Source of the DNA: Posidonia oceanica
Lineage: Eukaryota > Streptophyta > Magnoliopsida > Alismatales > Posidoniaceae
DNA: 64,000 nucleotides
Assembly (NCBI GenBank): GCA_037176725.1
Contig: JAZBRS010000013.1
Span: forward strand, 8,249,001 to 8,313,000
Direction of reading: 5' to 3'
The translations under genes were made by a program, and so were the position numbers. Positions within the stretch are counted from its first letter, which is position 1. Each line of letters starts with the position of its first letter. Under the pieces are notes generated by a model. The model had not been told where the DNA came from. It saw only the letters and a program-made list of their open reading frames with translations, and made no database searches. This document shows positions 22,806 through 60,334 of this stretch, piece by piece.

Positions 22806-22815
22806 CCTTTGATTT

Positions 22816-30370: not shown

Positions 30371-30422
30371 ATAAGGAGTTTACAAAGCAATATAAAAAAG
30401 GTATATACCAAAATGACAAAAA

Positions 30423-35168: not shown

Positions 35169-35207
35169 TCCTAAAACTAGACAGCTAAGAGCTGTCTACT
35201 TTTAGGA
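35169..35207. repeat. Fold-back with 18-bp arms
   Basis: TCCTAAAACTAGACAGCT (35169-35186) and AGCTGTCTACTTTTAGGA (35190-35207) pair with one mismatch around a 3-nt loop. Confidence 0.7.
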
Positions 35208-39617: not shown

Positions 39618-39620
39618 TGT

Positions 39621-39870
39621 GCCTAGGGGATGGCCCGAGGGAGTCGAAAACAAAAATATGACGTGCCTACGGGGTGGCCCAAGGGAGTCGAAAATAAAAA
39701 CATGACGTGCTTAGGGGATGGCCCAAGGGAGTCGAAAATAAAAACATGACGTGCCTAGGGGATGGCCCAAGGGAGTCGAAAATAAAGACATGACGTGCCT
39801 TGGGGATGGCCCAAGGGAGTCGAAAATAAAAACATGACGTGCCTTGGGGATGACCCAAGGGAGTCGAAAA
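39621..39870. repeat. 44-bp tandem array (right part), about 5.7 copies
   Basis: Continues the array of 22816-23345 across the CACTA insertion, with the same unit GCCTAGGGGATGGCCCAAGG and following bases. A stub of the 34-bp family follows at about 39890. Confidence 0.9.
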
Positions 39871-39974
39871 GGATACTTCTTTGGCTTTGCTTGCTTTGTT
39901 GACCCGATTGTGCTCCGGGGTTCTTGCTGTTCTGCTCTTAATTCTGCTTTGACCTGTTGGACGCTTGATTGCTA

Positions 39975-40040
39975 GCGTTCAACGTTGGACGGCTAAAGAA
40001 CCACGGCTAATGTTGGACGGCATTGCGGCCGCGTATAACG
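39975..40040. promoter_or_regulatory. Palindrome cluster upstream of PMD gene 1
   Basis: Sites GCGTTCAACGTTGGACGG (39975-39992), ACGGCTAATGTTGGACGG (40003-40020, 28 bp after the first) and the half-site GCGTATAACG (40031-40040). The cluster ends 100 bp before the TATA-like box at 40141. Confidence 0.7.
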
Positions 40041-40140
40041 TCGCGAGACAAGCTGCTGTCTTTCCTGTTCGGGCACCACCATTTTGGCAGTAAATCTCCA
40101 ATTTTCTTTGGGTTTCCATTCCGATGAAGGCTCCACGGCC

Positions 40141-40147
40141 TATATTA
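40141..40147 (+). promoter_or_regulatory. TATA-like box of PMD gene 1
   Basis: TATATTA, 95 bp before the start codon at 40236 and 100 bp after the palindrome cluster. The same arrangement is seen at the other two PMD genes. Confidence 0.5.
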
Positions 40148-40235
40148 GACCTCCTCTTGGCTTGAATCTTGTAGTTCAAACATTTATCTTCCTTCCCTTA
40201 TTGAGTTTTGCTTGCTAGGGCTTGTGCTTCTCCTC

Positions 40236-41560
40236 ATGGATTTGAGTGATATCCCACGTCATGCTTTCCAGGTGGCCGTCTTCTCCTCTCCTTCTGACAT
40301 GGTGCAACTCCGGCTGGAGGCTATACCCAACCATTTGGCGAACCTGTTGGTGCATGAGAAGGTACTCCCTGTTTTCATCATTTCCCCATACTCCCATTCT
40401 CGTACTTCTGCTGATTTTTCCTTACTTTATAGCCCCTATCTTCTGCCAACAACGACCATGACTCGAAAGCTTATTAGTTGAATTGGGTTCAACAATTCCG
40501 CTCTTGGGCTTTGAAGAAGTATCGGGAGCGCTTGGAGGAGGCTGGTCTCTGTCAGGCCCTTCGCCAGCTGCGGCAGCCTGTTGACTAGAACGTGCTCTTC
40601 GGCCTCTGTAGGCTGTGGAATCCTTTGACCCACACGTTCTTTTCTTTTTCGGGGGAATTGACCATTCTTTTGGAGGAGGTGAGTGCCCTCCTAGGTACCC
40701 GACATGCCGACCCATCCATTTACTGCAGGGATGCCTACCTTTTGCCAATTGGGGTGGTAGGTTCTTTTTCTCTCTTAAAGCGCATCTTCGGCTCTGTTGT
40801 TGTGCCGGAGGACCTGGTGCTGGATGACTGTATCAAACTCTCCTCCTTGTCGAAATTTTTCTGGAAACAGCACGACAGCATCCGCTCTGAGGCTTCTTGC
40901 TTGGAATGCGTCTTTATTCTGATCGGGGGGCTGGTGCTCTTCCCAAATGAAGCTCTGACTATTAGTGCCTACCATGCTGAGCTCATGTGCATCTACGTGC
41001 GCAACCTGGAGAAATGTTTGAGTCAGTCTATTTTGGCTTTTACCATCCGGGGCTTATCCAGTGCCTGCCTTGGTGGGCCATTCTTTGGCTCGCCATTCCT
41101 AGTTCTACGCTGGCTAGAGGAGCATTTTCTTCTGCCTGCTCTTGATGCTAGCATTCCCTTGGAGGAGCTCATTCGCCGTTCATGCGCTTGCGAGGTCAAG
41201 TCCCAGATGGACTCCTTCAGTCCCCCCTCGTCTTTCAGGACAATGTCTGACCTGGAGTATTTACTGATGCTGATTGGGGCGACCGAGTTTGTGAGGTACA
41301 ATCCTCAGCAATGCTTCTCAATGCTAGGTACTCCTCGGGCCATACCTCCCTTACCGCGCTTCTCTGATATGATTCTCCCGTGCTTGAGGGACACCCCTGG
41401 GGACATCATCCAGGTCTTCTATCAGGCTGGTACTTGGGACGGGAAGGGGCGAAACCAAGTCCTTTCTGCATGCGAGAACTCGAATGCGGACCGTGAAGCC
41501 ATCTCTCTTGTGACTTATGACGCTTGGTACGAGGGCGTACGTCCTAAATTGTTCATTTAA
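40236..41560 (+). pseudogene. PMD gene 1: plant mobile domain protein, antisense within element C
   Basis: Exon 1 is 40236-40361 (42 codons, starting MDLSDIPRHAFQVAVF). A 71-bp phase-0 GT-AG intron follows, then one frame from 40433 to 41560. That frame has TAG at 40475 and 40586 and is then open for 322 codons. The PMD-type core begins LCRLWNPLTHTFFSFSGELT with LLEEVSALLG, followed by FFWKQH, CVFILIGGLVLFPNEA and FFGSPFLVLRWLEEHF. The family (aminotransferase-like plant mobile domain, PF10536-type) includes the nuclear plant proteins MAIN/MAIL1 and many transposon copies; it is not a proven enzyme. Exon layout matches PMD gene 3. Both stops could be single transitions. Confidence 0.8.
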
Positions 41561-41705
41561 TTTCCTTCAAAAAGACAGAAAATGTAGTTAGAAATGTATC
41601 ATTTATCATTAATAAAATTTATTTCGTCTCTTTGGTCTCTTTTGAATGAATTTGTATGAGTTGAATGAGAGTATCAGAATTCAGAACACTTCCCTGAACT
41701 TAAAG

Positions 41706-41861
41706 CGTTGTACGCTCAAAATGGGTGTCCAACGTTATACACTGAAAAACCAGTGGCTAACGTTTTAACTTGCAAAACGTTGAACGCGTCATATGGTGTG
41801 TATAACAATCTTTCTTCCCGAGGCGTTGGACACTGGGATTCACGCGTACAACGTTGAAAGG
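41706..41861. promoter_or_regulatory. Palindrome cluster upstream of PMD gene 2
   Basis: Sites: GCGTTGTACGC (41705-41715), GTGTCCAACGTTATACAC (41725-41742), GTGGCTAACGTTTTAACT (41753-41770, 28 bp later), CGTTGAACGC (41778-41787), CGTTGGACAC (41824-41833) and GCGTACAACGTTGAAAGG (41844-41861). The last overlaps the start of the TATA box. This is the densest cluster in the window. Confidence 0.72.
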
Positions 41862-41868
41862 TATAAAG
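41861..41868 (+). promoter_or_regulatory. TATA box of PMD gene 2
   Basis: GTATAAAG, about 110 bp upstream of the likely start codon at 41979 and directly after the palindrome cluster. Confidence 0.6.
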
Positions 41869-41978
41869 CCCTCATCCTACGCCGTGGGTGGCCATCTGCT
41901 CCTCCTTTCTTCTTCTTCTTCTCCAGTGCCAGCATCCTCTCCGGCGACTTTCCTCCCCATTCCGGCAAACTTACCTTG

Positions 41979-44900
41979 ATGGAGAAGCGGATCTCGCACT
42001 TTTACACTAGGGCGGCTAAAAGGGCTGGGACCGGCCCTTCCCCCTACGGCGAGGCAGCGTCGAAGGCGGCGGCTGGGGTTGCTACGGCGCGGGAAACGGC
42101 GGCGAGGCTGCGGGAGGCGCCGGCGAGGCCGTGGCCGGCGGGGGCAGGGGCTGTCCCTGGGCTGGGCGCTGGGGTGGCCATGGTGGCCGGTCGGACTAGG
42201 GTAGGGGTGGTGGAGGCTGTGGTGCCGTGGCGGGGCTTGGGGCGACGTCCGGTGGCGATGCCGAGGCTGTGGGAGCGAAAACGGGGGCTGCCGTTGGTGG
42301 TACCGCGGAGGCCGAGGTGGCAGTTGATGACGACACCGTGGAGGCGGAGGCGACGGCCAGTGAGGCCACCGTAGGGGAGGACTTTGGTTCCAGGGAGGCC
42401 GTAGAGACGACGACGGAGGCGGTCTCCGGTTCCAGCAATTCCTTCAGCTTGGAGGATTCAGAGGAGACGGTCTCAGAGACGAGGCTTGAGATCAGCCTAG
42501 ATGAGGCGGGGCCCTCGGAGGTGCCCGAGGCGAGGCCAGTCGACCCCTTCCTTGCGCAGTTTGGCGAGGACGATGGCTGGTGGCGGAACATGGTTGACTT
42601 CGTCTGACGGGAGGTCGAGGATGATGCGACGGATCCCCCGGACTACTGGCGGGAGTAGATACCCAGAGACGAGGTGCAAGCATCGAGACCGCATAGGGAC
42701 TTGTCCCGATCAGAGTATGCCACTACTACACTGGCCTCTAGGGGGCAGGTATACATTTTTCATTCTTTATTTCCTTATTTTGTTCAATTATTTCTTCCTG
42801 ACTGATAGTTCTCCTGCTTGCTTGTAGAGTCGAGCACAGGCCATGACCCGCTGCTACTAGGGTCAGGTCCGTCGGTCCTACGCTTTGTTGACTTCTTTCC
42901 AGCAGGAGCGTCTGGATCGGATGGGATTTGGGCATTTCCTGTCCATCCCGGACATTCCCCTCCGTCTGATGTTCTTGGAGGTGGTTGCAGAGCGGTGGAG
43001 CTTCTGGACGAGCTCGATCGTCACGAGGGCGGGCGAGTTTGTCCTCTCCCTTGAGGACATGGCCCGGCTGACTGGTCTCCAGGTCACGAGCAGACCAGTG
43101 ACAGGGTGGGTGCGCCCGGGTTACTCGGCTTTGGCGTAGGAGCTTGTTGGACGTCAGTTAGCCATGAGCGGGGAGCATCTCGTGGTGATCACTTCCGCGG
43201 CTCACCGGGTGAGTGAGCTGGCGGAGACAATAGCCGGGCCGGGTGTGGAGGCTGACCAGCAGCTGCGGGCCTTCCTCCTAGTGCTATTCGGGGAGGTGCT
43301 CTTCTCGCACTCCTCCTCGAAGCTCTCAACGTGGTTCCTTCCTCTTCTGGCGGACTTGGAGCGCGTGGGAGAGTACGCCTGGGGTGCGGCCAGCTTGGCG
43401 CACCTGTACTCCACCCTATTCCGCTTCACCGACAGCAGTTCTCGCCAACTGGGCGGGAACCTACCCTTCCTTCAGGTAAATCTGCATATTTAAGCTTGCA
43501 TGGGATATTATATTCTTGCTAACAGCTTCCTTGTTTTGCGTGCAGATGTGGGCGTGGGACCACTTCACCTTTCTGCGACCTGCCCCTCCTCTGATTCCTC
43601 CTACCGGTGTCCCCTTTCCTCGAGGACTATTTTGGGCTACTGCTAAGCAGACCCTCGAGCCTGCAAATAACAATCGCTATGTCGATCGTCTGCTTTTCGA
43701 GCTCCTTGTCCCAGCTCAGGTAACTAGCTTCTTTTAATTTCAACTTCTGTTTATTTGTTTATGCTGTTTGCTGACATGTATTGCTCCTTTCAGGTGGTTT
43801 GGCGTCCCTATGCTGAGGGAGAGCATGCGGACATCCCCGAGATTGCCCGTGATCGGGCCATTTTCGACCGGGACGTATGGATCCACTGCTGGAACCACTG
43901 TCACTTCCAGCAGATTGGCAGTGCGCTACGACAGCTGGAGCACCGGCAGGCTCAGCCTTCACCTCCTCCTCACCGAGTTTGGTGAGAGACAAGTGGCAGG
44001 GGCAGCCGTGCTCGCCACTGGGTGGATGTCTACGGTCCACAGCTCCTGGACTAGGCCCGTCGTGGTTCCCCCGCTCCGACGGATGCTACAGAGGAGGACG
44101 AGGTGGTGTGGGCTGAGTGGATAGACCGGGAGTTTTCTTCTCTGATGATCTTCCACCGGTCCCACTTCCTTAGGCGCGGGAACCTTCCATTAGGGGACAC
44201 AGATCCCGGGGAGGCAGTGGTGTCCCGCGCGGCCCTGCTGGAGGAGGTTCAGTCTTCCCGAGCCCAGCTAGAGATTGCGGTGAGCTTTTGAATTTCAGTT
44301 TGTAGACTGTTAATTCAATTTGGCTAACTTGCTTTCTTTCTTTTGCAGCTCAAAGCGGCTGATGAGCGGGCTCAGCAGGAGCGCCACCTGACCCAGCAGC
44401 TCTCCGTCCTGACAGGGAGATTGATCGTCTACGTGCCTCTGCCTCTCAAGTATTTTCACAAGTAGCTTTTATAGTCTGGTTATGAATTGTAACTGACTTG
44501 AATCTTCCTTTTCAGCCTTCGACTAGCAGTGCTCCTCCTCCAAACCGCTCAGAGGAGATCTCCCATCTCCAGGAGAAGGTAAACATGCTTTTATTTTATT
44601 TCTGCTTTTGAAATTCCCTTGGTCCTAACGCCATTGCTTGTAGGTCGCTTATCTAGAGGGCAAGCTGAGGGAGCAGGCTGGTGACTTCATAGCTGCCAGC
44701 TCTGTCGGGAGGTTAAAGGAGCTGGAGGGAACAGTGGCCGCTAGCAGCGCTCGGATCTGGGAGCTGGAGCAGCAGGTTGCTGATAGGGACGCTGAGATTG
44801 CCCAATCTCAGGTGGTACGATTTAATTCAGCGTTTCTTTATGTCTTCCATGTCCTCGCTTATATCTGATATTTTGGGCTGCTTCTCTCCTCAAGGTACGA

Positions 44901-45214
44901 CGGGCGTTATCTCCCAACTTAAGCATGAGCTTGGGCACTACCGGAGGTTTGCTTTTTCAGCTGGTGCCAGGCTCGAGGTGCCTGTTCCTTCTATACCGAG
45001 CCGTCGGTCAAGTAGCCACTATTCTCGATCTGTCTCCAGGGCCCCGTCAGGCGTTTCGGTTCGACAGTCGCCTCATCCCCCTACTGCCCTTCTCCAGCTC
45101 CTACTTCAGCTCCTACTTCAGCTCCTGAGTGGGAGGGAGAGAGTGCTCCCTAGCTTTTGTACTTCAGGGGTATGCCCAGGTGACCTTGTAGAACAGTTGT
45201 ATATTTTGAAATGA
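41979..45214 (+). pseudogene. PMD gene 2: PMD protein with Ala/Glu-rich N-terminus and coiled-coil C-terminus, 8 exons
   Basis: Exon model with GT-AG borders: 41979-42748, 42828-43475, 43546-43719, 43794-44279, 44349-44449, 44516-44578, 44644-44811, and 44895 to about 45214. Exon 1 starts MEKRISHFYTRAAKRAG and is GC-rich, coding Ala/Val/Glu-rich sequence with an apparent frame change near 42220. Exons 2-4 hold the PMD: FGHFLSIPDIPLRLMFLEVV, FVLSLEDMARLTGLQV, STWFLPLLADLERVGEYAWG, then MWAWDHFTFLRP and VVWRPYAEGEH. Exons 5-7 encode heptad-like sequence such as LKELEGTVAASSARIWELEQ. Exon 8 is Ser/Arg/Pro-rich. In-frame stops (about 43137, 43983, 44055) fit C-to-T changes. The PMD-plus-coiled-coil layout suggests an oligomeric nuclear protein, which is inference. 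Confidence 0.78.
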
Positions 45215-45631
45215 TATAGATTTCTACACACTCAGTAAACTTGTCAAATACTTCTTTTAAATTACCTTTCTCAAAGCTAAAGCGAGCTTAAGCGACCAAT
45301 ATGGTAAAATAATGGCCCTTAATCCAAATTAACTTAATCCAGCATATTCAAGTGAAATAGTATGTAAATGACATAGTTATAAGGAAAGATTTCACCTGTA
45401 AGCTTAAAATTTGAATTTTGAAGTCGTCAACGCCTTAACGAGCCATTTACTTGATGAAACGAGAAACCAGAGATTCCGATTGGCTCAGATGTCTAAAAAA
45501 TATGAAACCAACGCTCACACATGTATTTCAACTTAGTTAAACCTCTGGAATGGGCAAAACAGGCGCATGCAACTCAATTACGGATTAGGGGGCAACCCAG
45601 CCAAGTTTAGTAACTTAAGTCACTGATAAAA

Positions 45632-45764
45632 CGTTATATGCCTCATCTGCTGCGTCCAACGTTATCCGCTTGAATGTCTGCGTCCAATGCCGGTAGCTGC
45701 TCTAAACGTTATACACTTCAAATGGCGCGGCCAACGTTGGACATGCCCCGTCTCGCGTACAACG
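45632..45764. promoter_or_regulatory. Palindrome cluster upstream of PMD gene 3
   Basis: Sites: CGTTATATGC (45632-45641), GCGTCCAACGTTATCCGC (45652-45669), GCGTCCAATG (45680-45689), CGTTATACAC (45707-45716), GCGGCCAACGTTGGACAT (45727-45744, 28 bp period again against the next site) and GCGTACAACG (45755-45764). The TATA box follows at 45876. Confidence 0.72.
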
Positions 45765-45875
45765 AAGCGAGCCCAGAAACTTTTCTTTCCTTTCCTGTTC
45801 TTGGCTAATCTTCCAGAATGCATGCAAAATTTTTTCAATGCCCGCGTGAAGGATTTCCGACGACCCTCCTGTGCT

Positions 45876-45882
45876 TATAAAA
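45876..45882 (+). promoter_or_regulatory. TATA box of PMD gene 3
   Basis: TATAAAA within GCTTATAAAAGC, about 100 bp upstream of the start codon at 45980 and about 110 bp after the palindrome cluster. Confidence 0.7.
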
Positions 45883-45979
45883 GCTTCGCCACCCCTTTGA
45901 TTTCCATGCATACTTGCCCCCTTTATCTCTACTGATTTCTTCCTGATTTGTGCTTCTTCCTTCCCTCTCTTTTGCTTTC

Positions 45980-47324
45980 ATGGCTTCTAGTTCAGTCCCC
46001 AATGTCTTCATGCACAACAAGAAGGGGATCGTGAAACCTTTGGAAGAGATTAAAGGGCATATGATGTCCCTTATCAAGACGGGGAAGGTATGATCTTCTT
46101 CATTGGTCCCTTCACACTCCTTTGTTCCTCATGCTTCTGAATTTCTTTGCAGGAAATCCTCAATTTTACCAAAACACCTTGCTTTGACAATGACTTCCCC
46201 TACTACTCCACTTGGGTGAAGGATTTGTGCTTTGGGCTCGAGAGAGGAAATCTGTTTTGGCCCATACGTGCTTTGATGGACTTTTGGATTTATTGGGCAC
46301 AAACTTGGACTGGCCCCTGCTTCATGCCTCATGCGCCTTCTGGAGTCCTGAGACTCATACTTTCTTCTTTGGGGGTTGTGAGGCGACAATCCTAGTAGAG
46401 GATGTTCATGGCCTGCTTGGTGTAACTCAGATTGGAGCGGCCCGGCCAGATATTGACTTCCCATTACCATACGGAACAGCAGATATGCAAACATATATAG
46501 AGCGTATCTTCACCCTTCCGCCTACCTTCCCAGTGATCAGAGGTCGCAGACTCAACTTGGCGCATTTGTACTTCAGTTTCCAGCGGATTGAGGACTCTGC
46601 CTCTCAGGATCAGCTGCTGGTGTGTCTGCATTTACTAATTGGAGGCCTCACTTTATTTGTCACCAAGGATTTCTCCTTGGATGTCTATCATACTGAGTTC
46701 TTGATAGGCCTTACTGAGCATTTCTGGCGCTCTCCTTCAGTCACCATTCTCGCTGCCACATATCTCGGTCTGACCAGTGTCTCCACTGGAGGGGATTTTG
46801 TAGGCACTCCTTTCCTTCTTTCCCAGTGGCTGTAGGTCCATTTCCCGAGGCTCGGGCCCATGAAGACTGATTTGATTGAGGAAAGGGTTTGCTCTTTGTC
46901 CGCTACCCCTATTGACATTTCCGCGCCTTCCACGTCCCTTTCTCAAAAGCACAAGGCGCGAGGTTCTTCAGTTGAGTTGGAGCTGATAGGGCCCACCCAC
47001 TTTGTAGTGTACAACTCTCATCGTTGCTTTGAGATGGTGGGGCAAAAGAAAGAGGTGCCACCTCGGCTGAGCCTTATTCCCCGTATTCGAGTTTGGGAGC
47101 GCAGTCTTCCATCTGATGCAGTAATGGTATACTACATTCGGGCTCTCTGGTCGTCTCTGGACCGCCATGATGATTCAGAGGGGCCATCAACTACTCCTTC
47201 GACTTGCTGCCTACCACAGGAGGATGCGCACTGGAAGTGGTATTCAAAGCTACTGCCCAAGCCCGAGGAGTGGGTTGAAGCAACGGGCGTGCTGCACAGG
47301 AAAAGGAAGAAGATGATTAGATAG
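45980..47324 (+). pseudogene. PMD gene 3: plant mobile domain protein, antisense within element C
   Basis: Exon 1 is 45980-46087 (36 codons, MASSSVPNVFMHNKKGIVKP). A 65-bp phase-0 intron (46088-46152) ends TTTGCAG. Exon 2 starts EILNFTKTPCFDNDFPYYST and then changes frame between about 46210 and 46300. From there one frame runs to 47324, broken only by a TAG at 46833. Core motifs are CAFWSPETHTFFFGGCEATI, LVEDVHGLLG, LHLLIGGLTLFVTKDFSLDV and FVGTPFLLSQWL. The C-terminal part includes ELELIGPTHFVVYNSHRCFE and ends in the basic HRKRKKMIR, which could be a nuclear localisation signal. Intron position and order match PMD gene 1, so the two are probably duplicates. Confidence 0.8.
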
Positions 47325-47507
47325 GCAATTATTGTAATCTTTTATCTTTGGGGACCATGTATCTTTTCAAGAGAATATATATATATTTCATTTTTCATCC
47401 TTGTTCATGTGTTTTGGACTGTTCTGAGTTTAGGAATACTCCCTGGTGGCTTTGATATTTGATCAAGGGCCCCTTTTCCACATTCAGCAGTTTAAGTCAC
47501 AGTTAAA

Positions 47508-47617
47508 ACGTAAGACGCTCAAACTGGCACTTATAACATAAGACGCAAAATATTAGGCGTCCAATATCCCTCTGTTGATCGTTATACGCTTCAGATGTCG
47601 CGTCCAACGTTGGACGC
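47508..47617. promoter_or_regulatory. Orphan palindrome cluster beyond PMD gene 3
   Basis: Includes CGTTATACGC (47580-47589) and the perfect 18-bp palindrome GCGTCCAACGTTGGACGC (47600-47617). No PMD-like frame follows on the plus strand, and I see no clear TATA box nearby. It may mark a lost fourth gene or an unknown transcript. Confidence 0.65.
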
Positions 47618-49079
47618 TGATTTTTGCTTGTTTAACGCCCCTGAACTGTTTTCCTACATTACCTCAGCAAACTTGTTAGTTCATCTAAGGGTATTATTGC
47701 CCCTAGTCCAAAGTGACTTCTGGAAGCTCAGAAACATCCTTAACATTGCGAAATCAAAAAGGTTACGGAAAACTTGTTAACAACCTATATACAATGCATA
47801 TTTTAAGCAAACCTAATGCTATGAATGGGAAAGAAGTCTTAATGCAATGGAGAAGTTAAGGGAAACATAGGTTTTGAATAACAAGTATTGGCCTCAGCTT
47901 TGTTGTCTAAAGATGATATGTCAGACAAGGGACTGTCTCTTCTTGAGATCCCAGTCTTATCTCATAGGCGAATACCAAGCGACCGTCCTAAATAGGAGGG
48001 GTCGAGTACGACACGGAGTCGTAAAATGTCCTAGAGTTTTAGCATCACTAGCCTTTACTTGTTATCAATTTCATGAGATGATGTTGGTTGGGTAGATTTT
48101 ACCCTACTCACTATTTTTGGATTTTTGATTTTATCATTTTTTTGGATTTTTGACTTTATCATTTTTTTTGGATTTTTGACTTTATCATTTTTTTGAATTT
48201 TTTATTTTATCATTTTTTTGGATTTTTGACTTTATCATTTTTTGGATTTTTGATTTTATCATTTTTTTTATTTTTTATTTTATCATTTTTTTGATTTTTG
48301 ATTTTATGGGAGATGAAGAATCCTCCGGGAAGTTGGGAAACTGGAGACCTTATGGTTGGAAAACCTTAACAGTTTGGTCCCTTGTGCATCCTAGAGTCAG
48401 AAAATACCACGGGCTTGCCTTGACACCTAACTGCCCCTAGACCTAGGTCTCTGCCCCTTGCTTCTAATGTGTACAGTGCAGGATGTGGGTAGAAGGAAAG
48501 TCCATACCCTATCCTAAGATGTCGGCTGAAGATTTGAAACCTAAACCCCTCCTAATCCAAGGTTGATTCCAACTGCACTTAATATTCCCCAGCTTTTCAG
48601 TTTTGACTCTTGGACAGCTTCTTTGCTGCCGTCTTTTCCACTCTCTTTCTTTTTCCTTGCACATGGACAGCTTCTTTGCTGCCTTCTTTTCTGCCCCCTT
48701 TTTTTTGCTTTTCTTTTCTAGGTACTTTGGCAAGTAGTCTCACCCTTTCTGAGTGCTCGGTCAATGGATACTCGTTCTTTGATGAACCGAGACACTCTTT
48801 TTATTTGGTACACTCTCCTCTTTTCTGCGCTTCTAGGTTTTGGCCTTAGATGCCTACCCAATTTGTACTAGGGTAATGCGTCTGACTCGAGGGATGTGTG
48901 TGGACTTGTTATTCATGAACTGGGAGGGGGCTCCTTATGATTTTGCCTCTATCTCAGTGTAGGACCATTTCCTTTCCTTCTCCCACAAGGTGTTTGTGGG
49001 GTGAGGCTAAGGCATGATTCCTAGGCTTCAACAGTAGAGGGCCCTTGAGCACGGGTAGTCTAATGGCTCAGTGTGCATA
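47618..49079. other. Spacer between integrase and the orphan cluster
   Basis: No gene seen. At about 48100-48310 lies a T-rich microrepeat, roughly nine copies of TTTTGGATTTTTGACTTTATC with variants. The remaining sequence is of mixed composition with only short open frames. It separates the end of the sense genes from the antisense gene block. Confidence 0.55.
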
Positions 49080-50359: not shown

Positions 50360-50417
50360 GCCTACCCTTGATTCCCCAACTTTTCATCTAAGCTCCACGG
50401 CCCATGGCTCAGTTGAG

Positions 50418-51419
50418 TCAATGGCAGGTATCCCGTGCTGCTGAACCATTATTGTTTGCTCCCGAATATTGATGGGGAACCCAATTGAGGAAGCCAGCGA
50501 AGCGAGCATCCGCTAGTAGGTTATGACTCCGAAGGGTGTGGACGTACACCACTTGCTGAAACCGTGCCAATAGGAGGCGTGCAATGCCTTTGTATTCTTC
50601 TAGCCTTAGGTTGAGGGTTCTATATTTGTTCAGAACTTGTCTTAGAACCAATTGGGAGTCTCCGATAAGTTTCAACCGCTTTGCCCCTAGCTCTAGTGCT
50701 AGGCGTAGTCCGAGGATCAAGGCCTCGTATTCTGCAACATTATTGGTATTTGCGGCGAAGTTTAGCTGTACGGCTCGAGGAATGAGAACTCTTTCAAGAG
50801 TGAGAAATGCTACTCCGATGCCTGCCCCTTGTCTGTTGAGTGCTCCATCAAAGTAGAGAGTCCATTGTTGAGTGGGAGACTCGGTGGCTTGTATTTCCAG
50901 TATCTCCTCATCGGGGAAGTCTGTTCGGACTGGTTGATAATCTTCTATTGGTAGTTCTGCCAGGTGATCTGCGATGGCTTGCCCCTTGACTGCCTTCTGG
51001 GACACATATTGCAAGTCGAATTCAGTGAGGAGGAGTTGCCACCTTGACAATCTTCCAGAGAGGGCTGGCTTCTCGAACATATATTTGATTGGGTCCATTT
51101 TGCCAATGTAACAGACTTTATGGGCTAGGAAGTAGTGTCTCAACTTTTGAGATGCCCATACCAAGGCCAAGCAGTGCTTTTCTATGACTGTATACTTCTC
51201 TTCATAACCCAGGAAAGTTCTACTCAGATAGTAGATAGCTTTTTCCTTCTTCCCATCCTCATCATGTTGAGCTAGCACTACCCCTATTGATGATGCAGTG
51301 GCTACCACATAGAGTAGCAAACGCTTCCCTGACATAGGCGCTGACAAGACTGGGACAGTCATGAGATATGCTTTGAGTTCATCAAAAGCTTTCTGGCATT
51401 TCTCATCCCAGGTGAATTC
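50418..51419 (-). pseudogene. RT-linked RNase H plus second (archaeal-type) RNase H of element C
   Basis: Open from 51362 to 50418. The first part (LLLYVVATASSIGVVLAQHD, ALVWASQKLRHYF) is the RNase H that normally follows Ty3/gypsy RT, followed by a linker (FDLQYVSQKAVKGQAIADHL). The second part has WTLYFDGALNRQGAGIGVAF, NVAEYEALILGL and LKLIGDSQLVLRQV, with Asp, Glu and Asp at catalytic positions; this is the extra RNase H that marks the Tat lineage. It degrades the RNA strand in reverse transcription. Stops separate it from RT above and integrase below. Confidence 0.9.
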
Positions 51420-52300
51420 CCTTCCTCCCTTCAGTAACTCATAAAATGGCTTACATCAATCTGCATGCTGTGAGATGAATCTCCTGATGAACTGTAAGCG
51501 GCCAATAAGTCCCCTGAGTTCCTTGATGTTTCGGGGCAGAGGCATCTATGCTATTGCTCTGGCCTTCTGTGGGTCCACCTCGATTCCTCTTTTACTGATG
51601 ATGAAGCCCAGTAGCTTCCTAGCAGTTACCCCAAACACACATTTCTTTAAGTTCATTTTCAGCTGATATTGCCTTGCTCTACTCAGTACCCTTCTTAGTG
51701 CCTCAAAGTGTGCCTCCCTTGTTCTTGATTTGACCAAGATATCGTCAACATACACTTCCATGCAATCGTGCATCATGTCGTGGAAGATGGCCATCATCGC
51801 TCTCTGACATGTTGCGTCGGCGTTCTTGAGACCGAATGGCATGACTACGTAGCAGTATGTCCCCCATGGTGTGATGAACGACGTCTTCTCTTGGTCCTCC
51901 TCTGCTAGCTTAATCTGGTTGTAACCGGAGAAACCATCCATGAAAGATAGTATCTCAAATCCTGCTGTATTGTCTACTATCAAGTCAATATGTGGCAAAG
52001 GGAAGTCATCCTTGGGACAGGCGGCGTTGAGGTTGCGATAGTCAATGCAAACCCGAACCTTCCCGTCCTTTTTGGCCACTGGTACTATATTTGAGACCCA
52101 ACTGGGGTACACAACCACTCTGATGAATTTTGCTTTGTGGAGCTTGTCAATTTCTTCTTTGACTTTGAGGGCGAGTTCTAGCCTTAGCTTCTACTTGACG
52201 GGCTTGGTTCCAGAGTTTAGTTGAAGCAAGTGTTCCACTAGGGCTGATTGCAGTCCAGGCATATCCTCATATTTCAAGGCTAGTACATCCACAAATTCTT
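51420..52300 (-). pseudogene. Reverse transcriptase of element C
   Basis: Motifs in order on the minus strand: EDMPGL (about 52270), a TAG at 52191-52193, then YPSWVSNIVPVAKKDGKVRV, CIDYRNLNAACPKDDFPLP, FMDGFSGYNQI, TPWGTYCYVVMPFGLKNADA and the catalytic EVYVDDILVKS, ending near FGVTARKLLGF. A stop at 51546 and another near 51455 break the frame before RNase H. It would copy element RNA into DNA. All catalytic motifs remain, but the nonsense codons make it inactive as read. Confidence 0.92.
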
Positions 52301-52892
52301 TCAAGATTTGGACCATTTCCCCCTGCTCTTTTGAGCTCAGGCTTGCACTTATGAGTATTAGTCTTGGCTCTTCGGTGGTTCCCAGATTGACCTCCACGGT
52401 CTCTTCTTCAGCTGCCTTAGTTTGCTCATCATATTTGTCCATGAGGTGCTTAAGGAGGTCTGAGTCGGCCTCATGATCTTCTTCCTCATCACTGCAGCTA
52501 ACCAGCTCATACGCCTCTATTCCTGCACACCTCCCAAATCGATCAAACTCTTCTACTAGGAAGACAATGTTAGCAGTAGCCAGCTCCTGAGGCAATGCCT
52601 CTGTGTATTGACACACGCGCACAGTTTTGGAAGCGATGGTCGAAGTTGACCGCGAGCTACTAGAACTAACATGGTGATCCTCTCCCTTATTGAAAATAGA
52701 AAGTAAATTACCTTTATTCCTAGGAAATGAAAACAATGCAAAATTAAACAAAGTTTTATTTACAGCATCTAGGGGGATGCCCCTAGAGTTACCTCCATTA
52801 GTAGAGGTAGGAGCCTCTCTAGGCGGACTCGTCAGGATTGACGTTCCCATCATCTTCGAGAAGCTCATAGTCGGCCCCGGGATCGGGGTCAA
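52301..52892 (-). pseudogene. Protease-RT linker of element C, possible intron region
   Basis: Open frame upstream of RT with acidic stretches (SCSDEEEDHEADSDLLKHLM) and no known domain. It overlaps the end of the protease frame (stop at 52819) in a different frame. T-rich sequence ending TTTCATTTCCTAG lies near 52719-52735 and a GGAGGTAACTC donor-like site near 52796. Ogre elements are known to have an intron between protease and RT, so the frame change here may be an intron, not decay. Confidence 0.5.
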
Positions 52893-54393
52893 CTTCAGGT
52901 CTCTGAGGTTGTAGCCCTTCAGAGAGATCAGCCGTGAGGCGGCGGACCCTGTCTACAAGTCGTTGTGATTGCCCCGGCCTTTGCTCCAAAGAGGAAGAGA
53001 TGTCTGGAGCTGGAGGAGGCGGAGGCTTGGAAGCGGCGGTGCCGGAAGAGGAGGGAGAAGAAGAAAGAGGTGGCCGATCCGGAGGTTCGAGGGCCGGTGC
53101 GCCTAACAGTGGTGGCAGCGATATTGCAGTCTGACCTTCGTGAGGTTTTGCTGGCAACTCTTCTACAGTCTGACCTTCGTGAGGTTTTGCTGCTACAATC
53201 TGGCCTTCATGTGGCTCTGCTGTCAATTCCCTTGCAGTCTGACCTTTGTGAGGCTCTGCTGGTAATTCAAGTGTTTGGAATAAGCCGAAAATGTTTACGT
53301 CGACTGTGTCCTCTGCACTTTGGAGAGTGTGTTTGGTTGATTGCGCCAAAATAATATTTCGCAGGGGGGATGAAATCGGGTCAAATATCCCTATGCTGGT
53401 AAAATGTCCTTGTAGATTCCACTGTAGTGGTCGTCCGTCGGGGAACTGGTTGAAACCGAGTCCTCCCCTTCCTTCTCTGTCACAGGCCTTCACTGGCTCC
53501 TTCATTCCCTTTCCTTCTGGGCCTAAGCCCTGGCCTTTCTTGTAGGCAATTCTCCTCATGATTTCCCATCCCACATTAATGGACGGTCTTTTGCTTTTGG
53601 AGGGTTCCTTCTTCTTGTGAAATAGCCTAGGCCTGGCCCACTTGTCCCTCAGCTCGACTATAGACACTACATTCTTACCTTTTTCGGTGCGGGTCAGCTT
53701 CTCTCGCACACTGAACTGGTGCGGCAGGTATATCACATTTGCCTCTGCTTCTTGGCTTGGTGTGTCTCCTGCTATCTTGATGATTTTCCCATCGTGTGGG
53801 AATTTTAGGCATTGGTGCCAAGGATGTCTCCCCAGGATGATCTGATATGGGACATTGACGTTTATGACGATTAGTTGGGTTAGAACTTGAGCTGGTCCTA
53901 TCCCTATCTTTGTGGTCCACTTGCCATGCGCTTTTCTTTTGCTGTCATCATACCCGGCAATCGTCATATCAATGGGGGTTAAGGAGGCCTCATTCACGCT
54001 CAAGGCTCGTATTGTATTCAACGAGCAAATGTTCATTGATGCACCAATATCTATGAGCACTTCAAAAATTAAGTGATTGTTTATAGAAATGGTTACATTC
54101 AATGGAGCTTTTCTCCTCTCTATTGGTGCCAACTCGCTATCAGCAAAGGTAATGATTGGTTCTACAAAGGCTGCTGTAGTTATGATATGGAGTTCCTCTG
54201 CTGGCATGTCTGGGGCAACTTGGGCCTTCTCTAGCACTTCTAGCAGAGCTTTCCGGTGTTCGTTTGAGCTGTTTATGAGGTCATAGATCGAGATCTTGGC
54301 CTGCGTCTTCTTCAATTGCTCTTGGATGTCATATTCTGCCGACCTGGGTCCTACTTCAGGTCTGACCGGCTCTGCTTGCTCTGCTGGTGGCAT
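52819..54393 (-). pseudogene. Aspartic protease and G-patch region of element C
   Basis: 524-codon open frame. About residues 20-60 match the conserved Tat linker (YDIQEQLKKTQAKISIYDLI). About residues 100-200 are an aspartic protease, with active-site-like VLIDIGASMNICS and the later VPYQIILGRHPW. About residues 265-310 are a G-patch-like stretch: NVGWEIMRRIAYKKGQGLGP, then KGMKEPVKACDREGRGGLGF. The C-terminal part is Pro/Ser-rich, with several copies of AEPHEGQT-type repeats. The protease would cut the polyprotein; G-patches bind RNA or helicases in other proteins. The frame is intact, unlike most of C, but the usual DTG/DSG triad reads DIG, so activity is doubtful. Confidence 0.85.
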
Positions 54394-54537
54394 GATTCAA
54401 TTTGACAGCCTCCCTCCTCTGGTGATGGGTGCAGCAGCCTCATTTCCTTTAGATGCTCCCTTCTTGAGCGGCCAGGCGAAGATGGACTCCCTCCGTATAG
54501 ATCCGTCGAGCTCTAGTGGCTTTGTGGCCCTAGCTTG

Positions 54538-55281
54538 CTACTCTGTTGGCACTCGAAAGATTGGGGATGATGGAGTAGTAGTGCTCCGAAGTACTGAAGT
54601 GCTGAGAGCCGATAATTGACTTGATGGTGGCCTTGCTGCTTTGAAGATTGGGGAGACTGGTGGTGATAGCAACTTGGGATCCCATAGCGGTGATTTTCTC
54701 CATGGCAGATGTTGTGACTCCTCCTCTTCCCGAAGGATTGCAATTTGTGGCTCTGGCATCTTGAATGTGCATAGAATCCCTGGTCGGTTGGCTGGAATGC
54801 TAACAACTGCTCCTTGGTATTTGAATTTTAGCATTTGATGAACCGAAGATGCTACAGCCCCGACCTCTGCTAGCCAAGACCTCCCTAGGATGAGTCACTC
54901 CAGGACTTCCTCCTTCATAATGATCACTAAAGTAATACTGGTAAAAGGACCGACTGTGATTTCCATGGGTATTGTTCCTAGTGCCAATTTCTCTTTCTGA
55001 TCAAACCCAGTGCATATAAAGGGAGTCCTATCTAGCTCGCCCTCATTTAGCCCTAAGCTCCGGAGTGTGGAGAGAGAACTGAGGCTTCGGCTTGCTCCAG
55101 TGTCAACCAATACTCCTTGCAGTACATTATCATTGATGCCCACTATGATGACAAGAGGCAGCTCTTGCTTATGTGGGGGCGGAAGCTCCGAATCTTTGAA
55201 GACAATATTTTCCCGTTCAAATTGCTGATTGGCTTTTTGAACTTGGCTTTCCTCCTCTATGTCTTCTTGTGGTTCCTCCAC
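54538..55281 (-). pseudogene. Extra upstream protease-like domain of element C
   Basis: Frame 55281-54895 contains VIIVGINDNVLQGVLVDTGA with SRSLSSLSTLRSL, a textbook DTG(A) aspartic-protease active site. It is followed after one in-frame TGA (54895) by ILGRSWLAEVGA, the usual C-terminal ILGR motif of this fold, and then runs to 54538. It lies between gag and the canonical protease at 54.0 kb, so C has two protease-like domains in tandem. Element B has the same one (LVDTGASRSACS, 18.7 kb). The second copy may have a structural role, or may be the active one given DTG here and DIG in the other. Confidence 0.8.
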
Positions 55282-55299
55282 TACTGCTGTGAGGTTGAA

Positions 55300-57221
55300 C
55301 TAGCTAAGGAGCTCCTTCACTGTCAGTCCCTCGTCTGCCTCATTGTCCCAATCATCATCCGAGATTATTCCCCAGTGTTCAGCTTGACTGTCCCAGTCCT
55401 CTTCTAGTACGACATGGTTGTCCCAGTCCTTTAATGTTAGCAGATTAGGGAGTTGCTCGTCCTGGAATGCCATGACTTGGTGCTTGGGGAGAGGGTCGCT
55501 GTAGACTTGTTGAGACATCCCTGTCTGCTTTCTTTGTTTGGCTCTTTTGACCAGGACATCCCATTCAAACACATCTGCCTCCACCATGTCATAGACTATG
55601 TCCCTGAAAATCCAGCAGTCACTGATGTTGTGGCCATGCATTCTATGGAACGGGCAGTATTTCTTCCGGTCACAATTCAGCAATTCAGGCCTAGCTGGCA
55701 GGAATTCGAGTGCTTTTGTTTTTTCTAGTTCTATGAACATATCTGCCAGCGTGACTGGTAGAGGAGGGTAATGGTCTCTTCTTCCCTTTTTGTGTGGTAA
55801 TGGAGCGGGAACATTATGATAACCGTTCCCATTCCCAGTGTTGTTGGGGGGATTTCTGTGTTGGCCTGGCCATTTTGATTACCCCTAGTCCATTGCTGCC
55901 GGGGAGCATTCCACATAGGGCGGATCTGTTGCTGAGGGGGAGTGTTATTCCATGCCTGCTGCTGCTGAGGAGGGCGGCCCCATGTTTGCTGTTGCTGAGG
56001 AGAAGGGTGGCTCCATGGTGGCTGCTGCTGAGGAGGAGGGTGGCTCCATGGTGGCTGCTGTGAAGCTAGTATAGCCCTTTGTTCAAACGGCCTGGGTGCG
56101 GGGCTCATCTTGTTGACGACTTCGGTCACTCCCTCTACCACCTGTGCTTTTCGGCTTTTCTTTGGCTCCTCCATGAATTCATGCAGATTTTCTTTGACGG
56201 AAGCCGCCACTTCGTACAAAACCGTTACATTGGGGCAATAGGCATTCACTAGCCCCTTCTTCATTGGTCCAGTGGTGTTTGCAATGAGGGTCTGGACCAC
56301 TTGTCTCTCCGGATTGGTCAGCCCTGATCTGACCGCCATTTCCAGCCACCTGTTGGCAAATGTTACCCAGCTTTCGCCTTGCTTCATGACCTCCTTGCTT
56401 AGGTCATGGAAGGTTGGCTTGGGGTCTATCTTGTGCTGGTATTTTGTGAGGAAGCTCTCTCTGATTTTATCAAAGCTGCTGAGGTCTTCCTTGGAGAGAG
56501 TGAGAAACCAATCCATGGGCTCTCCCTCAAGTGAGTAGAAGAATAGGTGTACCACAAGCCCCAAATCATGAAAGTAGGGGGCGGACTCCATTTGGAACCG
56601 CACTAGGTGACTGAGTGGGTTAGTGGTTCCGTTGAACTTGGGAGTCTTCAGGTACTTGAAGCCTAGAGGTAATCTGAACGGGGGAAATCGGCTCATGTCA
56701 AAGTTTGCCGGAGCTTGGGTATGTACCCCTAATGCACTGAGCATTTTTCTCATCTCATCCAAATTTGTTATCCCAGCTGATGGGGTCGGGACATGTGAAT
56801 TGAAGGACGGATGGTTCTGCTGCTGATGGAGGTAGCTGTTGCAGAAATGTTGAGGTGCGACATGCTCGTATCGCGGGGGAGATGCCTGGTGGTAGTGATG
56901 ATCTGGCCAAAGCTGATTGCTTGGCAGAGGTGGTTGGGGATGTCTTAGATAGACTCCTTCCTTGTATTTGCCATGTGGCATGTAATTGTGTTCCTGAATC
57001 AAGGGGTTGGCCCTTGAGTTATAAGCTCCGTTGAGCGCTGTGCCCTGACCTGGGTGGTTTGTGTCCGGCGGTGGGTTGCCATTTTGTCCCTGGTATAGAT
57101 CTTCAGGGGTATGGTCCGCAACTAGCCTTCGTTGTCCTTCACCGAGATGGGGTGGCTGCTGGAGGTTGTTTAGAAATGGCCTCGTTTGGGCTGCTGTCTC
57201 TTCGTTTAAGAACTGGTACAT
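55300..57221 (-). pseudogene. gag: gag of element C
   Basis: Starts MYQFLNEETAAQTRPFLNNL at 57221. The N-terminal 170 residues are rich in Pro, His and Asn. The gag core (about residues 180-340) has FDMSRFPPFRLPLGFKYLKT, GLVVHLFFYSLEGEPMDWF and FLTKYQHKIDP. A Gln/Pro/Trp-rich repeat (WSHPPPQQQP type, about 56070-55900) follows. One frame change near 55820 moves into the frame 55740-55300, with the knuckle-like YCPFHRMHGHNISDCW and an acidic tail. A TAG at 55300 ends it before the first protease-like domain. It is homologous to the gag of element B (60.3-61.8 kb). It would form the particle shell. Confidence 0.9.
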
Positions 57222-58911
57222 GGCTCTATACTAGATTGAGTCCGGATCTAAGGCTTCTCCGGTGATTGGGTGGTAGATTGTAGGCTCCTCTCCCGAGGTA
57301 CTTGCTGAGTCTGACCTCTCTCTTTCTAGCTGATCAGCTTCATGGATTTGGTTCATCATTGCTGCAGCGTTTGAGATGGAATTGGCTTCAGGACGTAATA
57401 CGCCTCAGGGTATGGCGTATAATGTTGGACGCACAATTTCAAGCGTACAACCCCCTTAACAGTATTCCTCCTGTCTGCTCCTGTCTTTTCTTTTCTGCTT
57501 TTCCTTTCTCTCCTTTTCCTCTCTTTTTTCCTATTTTCTTTTTTTTTCTGCTCTCTTTTTTTTCTGATTTTTTTTTTCCTCTCTTTTTTTTTATATGATT
57601 TTTCTTTTTTTGTGTTTTGGCTTTTCTCTTTTTTTTTCTCTTTTTGAAGGATTTACAAATGCAAAGGAAAAGAAATTACAAAAACTTGGAAATTTTAATA
57701 CAGATTCCTAAAAAAAAGGAAGTAAAAATAAAACAAAACTGTCACTGTTATGGGTTTTTCCAATGTCTTCCCCTGTCAAACAAATCACAAAGGAGTTAAA
57801 AATATAACTGCCACACAAAGAATGCGTTAGACGCTTGACCTTCTGCGTATAACGTTAAACGCAGAGATCTTAGCGGCCAGCGCCCTCTTTCAGAGAACTG
57901 CACAGAAACACTTTCAAACAGCGATTTAAGGTTTTAAGTTTTGTTTTCACTTTGAGATTAGTGCTTTAAACCTGTTGTAGCTCTCTGGGTTCCTTAAGGC
58001 TTAGGTATGGCTTTTTTTGGAATTTCTAAGGCTCCTCACAAGATAGGTGAATATGATTGGTACTACCCCTACCTCAACTCCTGAGGATGCTAGGGGGAGC
58101 CTGAATACACTTAGGTCCCTACCCCGTAGAGGTAGAGCCCAGTGCACTCGGGATTGATCGGGTCACTCACGTATCCACACACAAATGCAATAAACAAACC
58201 ACTGAAAGGGGGAGGGAGGAATACAAGTCAAGGCTTGAGGTTCTAATTATCTTTTCACAAATGGCCAAGGAAGAAGAAGGGCCCTAGTAAAAGATAATGA
58301 CAATACAACTACCTTTCCTAAGCCCTTTGCAACAGAGGTGCTTGGGACCTAGATGATTACTTATATAACCCAAGAAATGACACAAGCAATTAGTTCCCAA
58401 TGAGGGCCATGCAAGTCATATAAAAAGATTTGATTTTTTTGTTATTTTTTGCAAAGCACCCAAAGAAACTGAAGTTCCGGTCCCTACGGCAGAGCCGATC
58501 ACCTCACACCTCAATTCTTCGGGCCAGTTATAACAAGGAAAACTAAAAGAAATTTTAAAACAGAAGGGTTTCTGTTCAGTAGTCGTTAGACGCGGATATT
58601 GCAGCGTCCAATGTTAGACACGCCAGATCACGCGTATAACGTACTGACAATATTTTTTCAGAAAAAGCAGTAATTTTTACAGATCACCCCCACGCTCGAG
58701 AATCCAGAGAGAAGGGGGAGGTGATTTCAGTTATTGAAACGTAGAAAACAAACGGAAAAGATCACGACGCCTCAAAACACTACGAGGAATTTCGCCGCTT
58801 CTTTAAAACATACGAGAAAATAAGAAACTAAAACTAAACTAAGAATGTCAATAACGAAGGAGGAAGAAGAAAGGAAGGGTTTACTTACCTTGCATGGGGG
58901 CACATTTAGCC
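57222..58911 (-). other. Leader of element C with three palindrome clusters
   Basis: Non-coding stretch between PBS and gag with a long T-rich run (57480-57650). Palindrome-family sites: GACGTAATACGC (57392-57403), GCGTATAATGTTGGACGC (57415-57432), GCGTACAAC (57443-57451); GCGTTAGACGC (57824-57834), GCGTATAACGTTAAACGC (57845-57862); CGTTAGACGC (58584-58593), GCGTCCAATGTTAGACAC (58604-58621), GCGTATAACG (58632-58641). A strong splice donor CAAG|GTAAGTA lies on the minus strand at 58892-58881, close to the PBS. Confidence 0.65.
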
Positions 58912-58931
58912 GTCCCATCGTGATCGCCAGA
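58912..58931 (-). other. Candidate primer-binding site of element C
   Basis: On the minus strand, directly after the right LTR, CTGGCGATCACGATGGGACG begins two bases from the LTR end. TGGCGA is complementary to a tRNA CCA end. I cannot name the tRNA. Confidence 0.5.
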
Positions 58932-58932
58932 C

Positions 58933-60334
58933 TGTGGATATGGGGTTTTTGGAGTGAGGTGAAGAGGAAGATGATGAGGAAGGTTTGGGGAAGAAGAGGC
59001 TTCTTTTGGCTCTCTCTTGCTCGCTCTATCTTCTTCTTTCTCGGGGTCCGCTTCTTTGTATCCGACTCCGTCACTCCACGTGTGATGGAATCGGCGTGAT
59101 CACCACTCTCGGTTCGCTTTCACCGGCCCTCGAAACGCCTTTGGGGAGATGTAGTGTGGTTGCGGGTTCAGCTACCTTGGGACAACGCCAGCGTTGCCCA
59201 AGGGTGCCCGTGCTTGGTAAGCTCTTTCTTCCTTCTTCCTCCTTGTATGACAAACGTTAGCAAAGCAAAACAAACAAAATAATATAAAGATGGATCAATA
59301 TGTGTAGTAACCTATCCAGGATTAGTAGAAAAGAAAATAAAGAAAGCATAGCAAGATACATACCCGAGGGGTTTGATCCCCCCGGTTGCAACTAAAAGAG
59401 ATGTATGCCTAGTTAACAATATATGAACTTGAAATAAAATGCTTGATTATGCTACGGAATTAAACATGTGATATCAGAAATGAAAAGGAAATGAATGAAA
59501 TAGAGTCTCCTCTGTCTATGCACAAGGTGCAAACTGTGTTGACATGAAGCCAACGACAACAAAAGGATCCTCAAGCTTCGAAGACTCTCCTTCTTTCAAA
59601 ATCTCTCTTCTCTCTTTCAATTCTTAAGGACCTCACTTCTCTAAGATTTTTAATCTCAAGAGAGCATGTGAGTTCCAAAAATTCCTTGACTACTTTTCTC
59701 TCTCAAAATTCCAGCCTTGAACTCTATGGGGGTACCCTTGCTTTTATAGAATCAAGGGAGGAACAAAAAAGGACACAAATGCCAAGTCAGCAGAGTTTCC
59801 TGTTTCAGAGGTGTTATATGCTGGAAAACCAGCGTATAACGTTATAAGCGAGAGTATCCGCGTATAACCACCTCCGAGGCATAACTGCCAGGATTAAAGA
59901 AGATTCTCCAATTAAGGAGTCTTTAAGTGTGATTAAACTCGGCTTTGATGGCTTTGACTGGTCAACAGGTTCCAAAGAAGGCAAAAACATGATTTTTGGA
60001 TTAGGCCAAATAAGAAAAGCTTTGGCTGACTGGGTTGCCACGTTGGACGCAGGAAAACAAGCAGCCAATGTTAGCCGCTGGAGAACCAGCGGCCAACGTT
60101 GTACGCTGAGAAGCCAGGGGACAACACCCTTAATCAGTTTAACTTCCAAATTTGGTCAGGATGTGAAGAACACTCAGGTTGCCAACATTTGGGGCTTAGA
60201 TAAGGATAGTACTTTGGACTTGAGAGGAACATTTGGCTCAAGTGAGATTCAGGAATGGGTGGAGGGCTTCTAAGAGCGACCTAATGCATGAGACTATCCT
60301 AACATGAAGGGAGTGCCAAAACGGGGTATCTACA
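58933..60334 (-). repeat. Element C 5' LTR (1402 bp)
   Basis: Same sequence as 19677-21069 with about 10 differences in the first 320 bp. It ends TATCTACA and is followed by CCTGC, the target duplication. The TATA box CTATAAAAG is on the minus strand at 59741-59749. Palindrome-family sites upstream of it (higher coordinates) are GCGTATAACGTTATAAGC (59832-59849), CGTTGGACGC (60041-60050), GCAGCCAATGTTAGCCGC (60061-60078) and GCGGCCAACGTTGTACGC (60089-60106). Confidence 0.93.

Follow-up and report, generated by a model that had tools for sequence, protein, structure and literature searches.

In the 64-kb stretch of the Posidonia oceanica genome analysed here (contig C5, 8.249-8.313 Mb; hereafter the window), a Ty3/gypsy long terminal repeat (LTR) retrotransposon, element C, carries three plant mobile domain (PMD) genes antisense to gag-pol, and a compact module built of inverted ten-base half-sites recurs upstream of the TATA box of each of these genes and in the U3 of both LTRs. 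The safe claim is that of a putative protein-binding module common to LTR families and PMD promoters. Beyond this, we tentatively propose, at somewhat less than an even chance, that the module is recognised by a single trans-acting protein, binding as one dimer or two; the likeliest candidate is an element-encoded PMD protein, which would keep the promoters active or unsilenced.

Architecture and distribution of the module

The half-site comprises ten bases, GCGT[C/A][C/T]AAC[G/A] (GCGTMYAACG), and the basic unit is an inverted pair, CGTTRKACGC-N10/11-GCGTMYAACG, with a spacer of 10 or 11 bp. In the standard module, a minus half is followed after 20/21 bp by a plus half, after 8 bp by a second minus half and after 20/21 bp by a second plus half; two overlapping pairs are usual per module, and the length is about 58 bp. 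Half-sites 20-21 bp apart are exposed on the same side of the helix, which is what binding by a dimer would call for. The first-pass annotation of this DNA had described a family of palindromes spaced about 28 bp apart. The sites are real and the spacing is 28 or 29 bp; the unit, however, is the inverted pair, and the 18-bp palindrome is the junction of two adjoining pairs.

The module survey covered the window and 29 loci (188,411 bases), of which L001-L008 and L015-L026 were chosen for the motif, L057-L059 for a PMD match, and L009-L014 at random. It yielded 95 modules, or 94 unique places, one having been counted twice through overlap: 67 contain four half-sites, eight contain six, one contains eight, ten contain two, and nine are odd-numbered or plus-minus fragments. 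The window alone holds 16 modules, ten of them with four half-sites. Module chaining accepted only steps of 19-22 and 7-9 bp, whereas the free histogram of pair distances was unrestricted up to 60 bp; for half-sites with at most one mismatch, it peaked at 20 and 21 (minus-plus) and at 8 (plus-minus), and the next peaks, at 28, 29 and 48-50, are sums of the 20/21 and 8 steps. The mismatches allowed per half-site differed among our scripts, and weak half-sites with three mismatches make up 1/6 of group A, 2/8 of group E and 2/6 of group J. Matches to the 18-mer in the window numbered two exact and 13 with at most two mismatches, against a mean of 0 for both in 20 dinucleotide shuffles, and exact ten-base half-sites numbered 19 against a mean of 0.15.

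Within element C (Table 1), modules occupy the U3 of each LTR (two groups), the leader (three groups), the regions before PMD1, PMD2 and PMD3, and the region behind PMD3. The first-pass annotation had placed its sites before every promoter of the element, which was borne out for the three PMD genes and the LTR U3. All of its clusters were recovered, with slightly wider limits (for example 39955-40040, 59812-59869 and 60041-60126), and its TATA words were found within 1-2 bp of where it had put them, the same words standing in the fetched relatives; its list lacked the modules at 47509-47637, 57394-57452, 57825-57882, 58584-58641 and 63505-63593. The gap between module and TATA box is 100 bp for PMD1, 8 bp for PMD2, 111 bp for PMD3 and 63 bp for the U3 of the 5' LTR. 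If these were operators, as that annotation supposed, they should be rare in shuffled sequence and in coding regions and should persist in other copies; the shuffles gave nearly none, the gag-pol open reading frames (ORFs) of C contain no module, the modules also lie outside the predicted PMD coding parts, and they are kept in relatives of C. A second copy of C, at 396-423 kb of contig C1, is mostly about 90% identical and has modules at matching places in the parts fetched (L003-L008). A relative of the PMD gene 1 promoter (L016) is about 70% identical and has the same TATA word, and near variants of the 39-bp end of module group E recur among the matches listed on contig C1.

Table 1. Element C, its genes, promoter words and modules in the window
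Feature	Position	Strand	Remarks
Element C	19667..60334	-	Ty3/gypsy LTR retrotransposon with antisense PMD genes; 40.7 kb
3' LTR of C	19667..21069	-	about 1.4 kb
Module A	39955..40040		before PMD gene 1; 6 half-sites (one with 3 mismatches); aligned in L004, L016, L025
TATA-like word TATATTA	40141..40147	+	PMD gene 1; kept in L004, L016, L025
PMD gene 1	40236..41560	+	ATG 40236 of exon 1 predicted; main ORF 40589-41560
Module group B	41706..41853		before PMD gene 2; 8 half-sites
TATA box TATAAA	41862..41867	+	PMD gene 2; kept in L005
PMD gene 2	41979..45214	+	several exons, limits predicted; coiled-coil-like C-terminal part
Module group D	45632..45764		before PMD gene 3; two modules of 4 half-sites
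TATA box TATAAAA	45876..45882	+	PMD gene 3; kept in L006
PMD gene 3	45980..47324	+	start predicted; reading frame interrupted in this copy
Module group E	47509..47637		behind PMD gene 3; no assigned TATA box
Module F	57394..57452		leader between 5' LTR and gag; aligned in L007, L017, L022, L024, L026
Module G	57825..57882		leader
Module H	58584..58641		leader
5' LTR of C	58933..60334	-	96.4% identity to 3' LTR over 1399 bp
TATA box TATAAAA	59742..59748	-	5' LTR; TTTTATA on + strand; kept in L003, L008
Module I	59812..59869		U3 of 5' LTR; copy 20547-20604 in 3' LTR
Module J	60041..60126		U3 of 5' LTR; copy 20776-20861 in 3' LTR
Module K	63505..63593		outside C; U3 of another LTR (+ strand, starts about 63288); 6 half-sites, 11-bp spacers

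Pooled over the alignments with relatives of C, identity was 89.4% in half-sites (1000/1118), 77.1% in spacers (495/642) and 87.1% in flanks (10,483/12,038); these comparisons include no row for module E, and one row for module H repeats a place (L007/L008). CpG positions were kept at 84.3% in half-sites versus 73.9% in flanks, non-CpG positions at 92.7% in half-sites, 89.7% in flanks and 78.6% in spacers, and the half-site letters T4, A7 and A8 at 0.96, 0.99 and 0.95; the relatives share ancestry, which makes the p-values of the comparison of CpG and non-CpG positions too optimistic. Among the 24 spacers of exactly 10 bp, 6 of the 252 pairs drawn from distant modules of C match at 8 or more of 10 positions, where shuffles give 0.3. 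Of these matches, three link U3 with PMD2, two link U3 with U3, and one links PMD3 with module E, from which we infer that modules have been copied between promoters of one element.

In the whole genome (2.96 Gb), AACGTTNNACGC is matched 121,431 times on one strand and 121,680 times on the other, and its reversed control 5,718 and 5,734 times. The exact pair CGTTNNACGC-N{0,30}-GCGTNNAACG occurs 51,065 times and its control twice; the 50 pairs among the matches listed, which are the first ones and all come from the beginning of contig C1, have without exception spacers of 10 (38 pairs) or 11 bp (12 pairs), although 0-30 was allowed. The opposite order, GCGTNNAACG-N{0,30}-CGTTNNACGC, gave 10,142 matches versus 3 in the control, many of the listed strings containing the complete 18-mer, which itself occurs 69,825 times (control, 2). 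In viral contigs, 30 stretches have one exact pair each, which we took as background.

Of the six random 10-kb stretches, three hold 18 modules in all (11 in L009, six in L014 and one in L012). Comparison of flanks with the modules masked separated 11 contexts that have no BLAST link at the threshold used. LTR sequence related to that bearing module K occurs in L009, L014 and L021, and the LTR elements in L009, L015, L018 and L021 have modules every ~230 bp over at least 1 kb. None of seven PMD queries gave a tblastn match within the fetched parts of L001, L002, L009, L014, L015 and L018-L021. In L009, two LTR starts flank a gag gene, so this element may be non-autonomous. An LTR at L023:1010-1536 is ~70% identical to part of the C LTR; its module spacers are 11 bp long, not 10, and spacer length therefore seems to switch between related elements.

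PMD genes and related systems

Downstream of pol and ahead of the 3' LTR, C carries its three PMD genes on the plus strand, opposite to gag-pol; they differ in how well they match the Pfam PMD family (PF10536). PMD gene 2 has two matches (E=2.6e-6 and 1.1e-15), the latter above the cut-off (58.1 versus 34.9 bits). Those of PMD gene 1 (E=2.8e-4, 20.6 bits; 3.8e-5 for its relative in L005) and PMD gene 3 (E=4.6e-7, 29.8 bits) fall below it. Three homologs of the PMD1 ORF were found. A coiled-coil family also matches gene 2 below cut-off at 44644-44865 (6.1e-5), and its coiled-coil-like C-terminal part could dimerise.

The second PMD exon of gene 2 additionally matches DUF1985 (PF09331) with E=0.0011-0.0012, below the Pfam cut-off. 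With this exon included, 16 of 19 scanned sequences match DUF1985 at E<=0.1, the best at 2.2e-4, and the match of P0007 is colinear over positions 25-136 of 141. PMD and DUF1985 appear to be distantly related: P0047, a PMD protein of peanut, likewise has a weak DUF1985 match (0.021).

A second stretch combining a PMD gene with half-site pairs is L012 (458-4490), which was drawn at random. It contains a PMD2-type gene on the minus strand (P0004, 36% identical over its length, E=6.4e-26, tblastn), broken by three in-frame stops and with a weak C-terminal PMD match (0.0024). Immediately after the gene, and in the opposite orientation, comes a plus-strand LTR-start word at 3720, the arrangement also seen in C. 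The U3 of the presumed LTR contains a 72-bp repeat with two pairs of 21-bp step, one at 4224/4245 and the other at 4296/4317, and a TATA box (CTATAAATA) lies at 4479. The minus arms resemble GCGTCTAACR and the plus arms read [G/A]CGACTAACG, one letter from the usual word; the half-site words contrasted between L012-type and usual pairs are GCGACTAACG / GCGTCCAACG. Single half-sites of the variant form occur at 4120, 4148 and 4389, with three more elsewhere in the 10 kb. As a single locus, L012 is no proof, but it matches the picture expected if protein and target change together.

The first-pass annotation had likened the sites to those of the VANC proteins of Arabidopsis VANDAL transposons. 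Judging from the portions of the papers available to us, the likeness lies in a short motif amassed in the non-coding DNA of a transposon that encodes candidate regulators as well (PMC5735166, PMC10398659), with targets in repeat arrays and with related elements having differing targets; the weak DUF1985 similarity of PMD2 is a further likeness, since VANC proteins have DUF1985 (PMC5735166). VANC21 binds YAGTATTAY, a short motif in non-coding regions of VANDAL21 (PMC5735166), and the motifs given for VANC6, likewise in non-coding regions, are AGTTGTAC and AGTTGTCC. The former, of the AC type, fits the half-site YGTTRKACGC at 7/8, a score that 1.1% of random 8-mers and 2.1% of shuffled ones also reach. 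Published VANC motifs measure 8-9 bp, and the available text of PMC5735166 contains neither 'palindrom' nor 'dimer'. Unlike VANDALs, which are MULE DNA transposons, C is a Ty3 retrotransposon known here from sequence alone, with LTRs, a 5-bp target-site duplication (CCTGC, at 19662-19666 and 60335-60339), and RNase H and integrase above the Pfam cut-off in its minus-strand ORFs; gag and aspartic protease are below it. The VANC comparison is partly supported, by the non-coding spread, the sub-threshold DUF1985 similarity and the L012 pairs; PMD copies whose upstream regions have no module speak against a simple link between PMD and the module.

Two groups of retrotransposons resemble C in structure. 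C shares with the Retand lineage a Ty3 gag-pol followed, ahead of the 3' LTR, by ORFs in antisense orientation. In the excerpts available, Retand/Tat antisense genes are mostly TRP28 (97% of clusters), whereas those of C are PMD genes; maize Grande gene23 has its own promoter; and neither 'mobile domain' nor 'PMD' occurs and no common promoter motif is described (PMC11963269, PMC7264820). TRP28 (PF04195) has no match in the scanned antisense ORF pieces of C, which cover the small exons partly. C also resembles the Gypsy elements that encode PMD-A proteins in having a PMD domain inside a Ty3/gypsy element, gene 2 alone being above the cut-off. The same domain is found in PMD-A and in MAIN/MAIL1, and host PMD proteins act in transposon silencing, according to the available parts of three reports (PMC5418596, PMC7156037, PMC9899485); PMDs encoded by transposable elements have been suggested as a counter-silencing strategy in another source seen in part (PMC8616336). 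The DOWN motif of MAIN/MAIL1 (MORC1 copy, CATGCAGTTT) proved unrelated to the half-site, with a best overlap of four letters.

A literature search for six ten-letter half-site words returned nothing relevant among the matches listed, and no paper joining 'plant mobile domain' with 'DUF1985' turned up in the library searched. Short repeated sites upstream of TATA are also familiar from plant LTR retrotransposons, as in U3 enhancer repeats such as the Tnt1 BII box. Unlike these, the module of C also stands before internal antisense genes and occurs in several LTR contexts.

Proposed binder and competing explanations

The first-pass annotation had ascribed its sites to one factor. This is supported by the fixed spacing, the pooled conservation of half-sites, the position before the TATA boxes of U3 and of all three PMD genes, and the spacers shared between U3 and PMD2. 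We infer, each as a separate step, protein binding, the PMD2-type identity of the binder and a VANC-like effect. A PMD2-type protein would be made from its own module-bearing promoter, would act in trans on every copy by binding the modules of its U3, leader and PMD promoters, and would thereby offset silencing, and module-rich LTR elements without PMD genes could profit from it at no cost. Action in trans would follow if the factor also governs elements that have no PMD genes. The element's own PMD2-type protein is slightly favoured as the binder because of its weak DUF1985 likeness and of the variant pairs before the LTR TATA box in L012; these pairs, beside a PMD gene, moved the weight slightly to an element-encoded protein and away from a host factor, which we consider nearly as likely. 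A wider version, in which Ty3 elements would own a sequence-specific anti-silencing system, with a distantly VANC-related PMD reading the modules of its own promoter, the LTR and the remaining non-coding DNA, word and protein changing together and gag-only elements parasitising the system and so spreading tens of thousands of module copies, appears doubtful to us.

Several observations weigh against an element-encoded PMD binder. The first-pass annotation had suggested a shared control circuit of the retrotransposon; against a circuit private to C, 49 of the 95 modules stand in flank contexts absent from C, mostly LTR elements without a PMD match in the fetched parts. Conversely, L013, where PMD is matched weakly (36 residues, 2.6e-4), has no module in its 10 kb, and three other PMD-bearing copies, two of them Pfam-confirmed MULE, have no module within 2.1 kb upstream. 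Every DUF1985 match is below the Pfam cut-off and the scanned homologs are not independent, and the structures predicted for the PMD1 ORF and for one PMD2 homolog are of low confidence (mean pLDDT 34.6 and 43.5); a search of solved structures gave no match. The CC-type VANC6 motif fits the half-site at 6/8, a score reached by 11% of random 8-mers, and the VANC21 types fit at 6/9 and 5/9; with the other motifs fitting less well, the VANC6 likeness is only a hint. In single alignments, half-sites are better kept than flanks in 16/25 cases and than spacers in 16/25 (one tie), and spacers are better kept than half-sites in module H (6/6 rows) and module I (2/2). Groups E-H of C have no assigned TATA box. 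Finally, spacers inside the same module resemble each other more than shuffled ones do (0.45 versus 0.32), so tandem duplication accounts for part of the regularity of the module.

The PMD domain alone was also considered as a predictor of the module and was rejected, as all three PMD copies opened have none in the 2.1 kb upstream. On contig C62 (G000:C62:360000-1865000), PMD matches recur every ~25.4 kb (e.g., at 1750083, 1775552, 1801007, 1826466 and 1851961), apparently as a long tandem array carrying PMD genes.

Only a little below the PMD protein in probability comes a host transcription factor that binds the module and is exploited by several LTR families, the PMD genes being passengers of the promoter. 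The modules in LTR elements whose fetched parts gave no PMD match (the nine loci named above) fit a host factor, and recruitment of host factors by way of U3 repeats is common among plant retrotransposons. The YAAC of the half-site, followed by G or A, also resembles what we take to be the core of plant MYB sites, but four overlapping half-sites match no plant factor site known to us. The leader modules and the group behind PMD3, which stand apart from any assigned TATA box, fit a host factor less readily, as does L012, the sole further PMD-bearing Ty3-like stretch seen, which also has pairs, in a variant form.

Far less probable is a degenerate minisatellite, spread by slippage and copied along with the elements, to which no factor binds. 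The 28-29 bp periodicity, parts of the module array reported as such by Tandem Repeats Finder, the mild likeness of spacers within a module, the recurrence every ~230 bp in some long LTRs and the better-kept spacers of H and I would all suit such an origin. However, half-sites stay while spacers differ in the pooled comparison, 67/95 modules have exactly four half-sites, the modules lie in 11 flank contexts, and the spacer is 10 or 11 bp in all 50 pairs among the matches listed. We therefore disfavoured a simple minisatellite on the grounds of pooled conservation, the four-part module size and the pattern of shared spacers.

The least probable explanation, and a very slight one, is an RNA hairpin formed by the inverted arms (for packaging, stability or as a small-RNA precursor): each pair could fold into a stem of 10 bp with a loop of 10-11 bases, and tea PMD genes yield phased small RNAs, in the portion of the report available (PMC10673657), but the variable arm positions are complementary in only 8 of 43 distinct pairs, with 13.8 expected under independence, and the U3 modules and modules A, B and D lie upstream of their TATA boxes. 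This lack of covariation between the arms favours double-stranded DNA and a protein and makes an RNA hairpin unlikely.

For the function of PMD proteins, both element-encoded and MAIN/MAIL1, and of the antisense genes of plant Ty3 elements, an abundant, defined module beside PMD genes offers one directly testable target. Should an element PMD protein bind it, sequence-specific self-control like that of VANC would be found in LTR retrotransposons as well as in DNA transposons, and PMD and DUF1985 would be united in a single recognition family. Should the binder be a host factor, candidate sites for a single regulator would number in the tens of thousands in a plant genome.

Other sequences in the window

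The polyprotein of C includes a G-patch domain (52822-54396, E=2.7e-7), which also occurs beside a protease at L014:4076-4624 (1.6e-6). Positions 1-18670 of the window are occupied by another LTR element, with LTRs of about 5 kb (1-5025 and 13682-18666) and a body partly related to the L009 type; no module was found in it, and its LTRs carry tandem repeats of 30 and 31 bp. A CACTA-type DNA transposon at 23400-39530 (ends approximate), with a tnp2 Transposase_21 domain (E=2.1e-68 at 32547-33659), DUF4218 and DUF4216, separates the two halves of a 44-bp tandem array of C (22815-23346 and 39619-39870).

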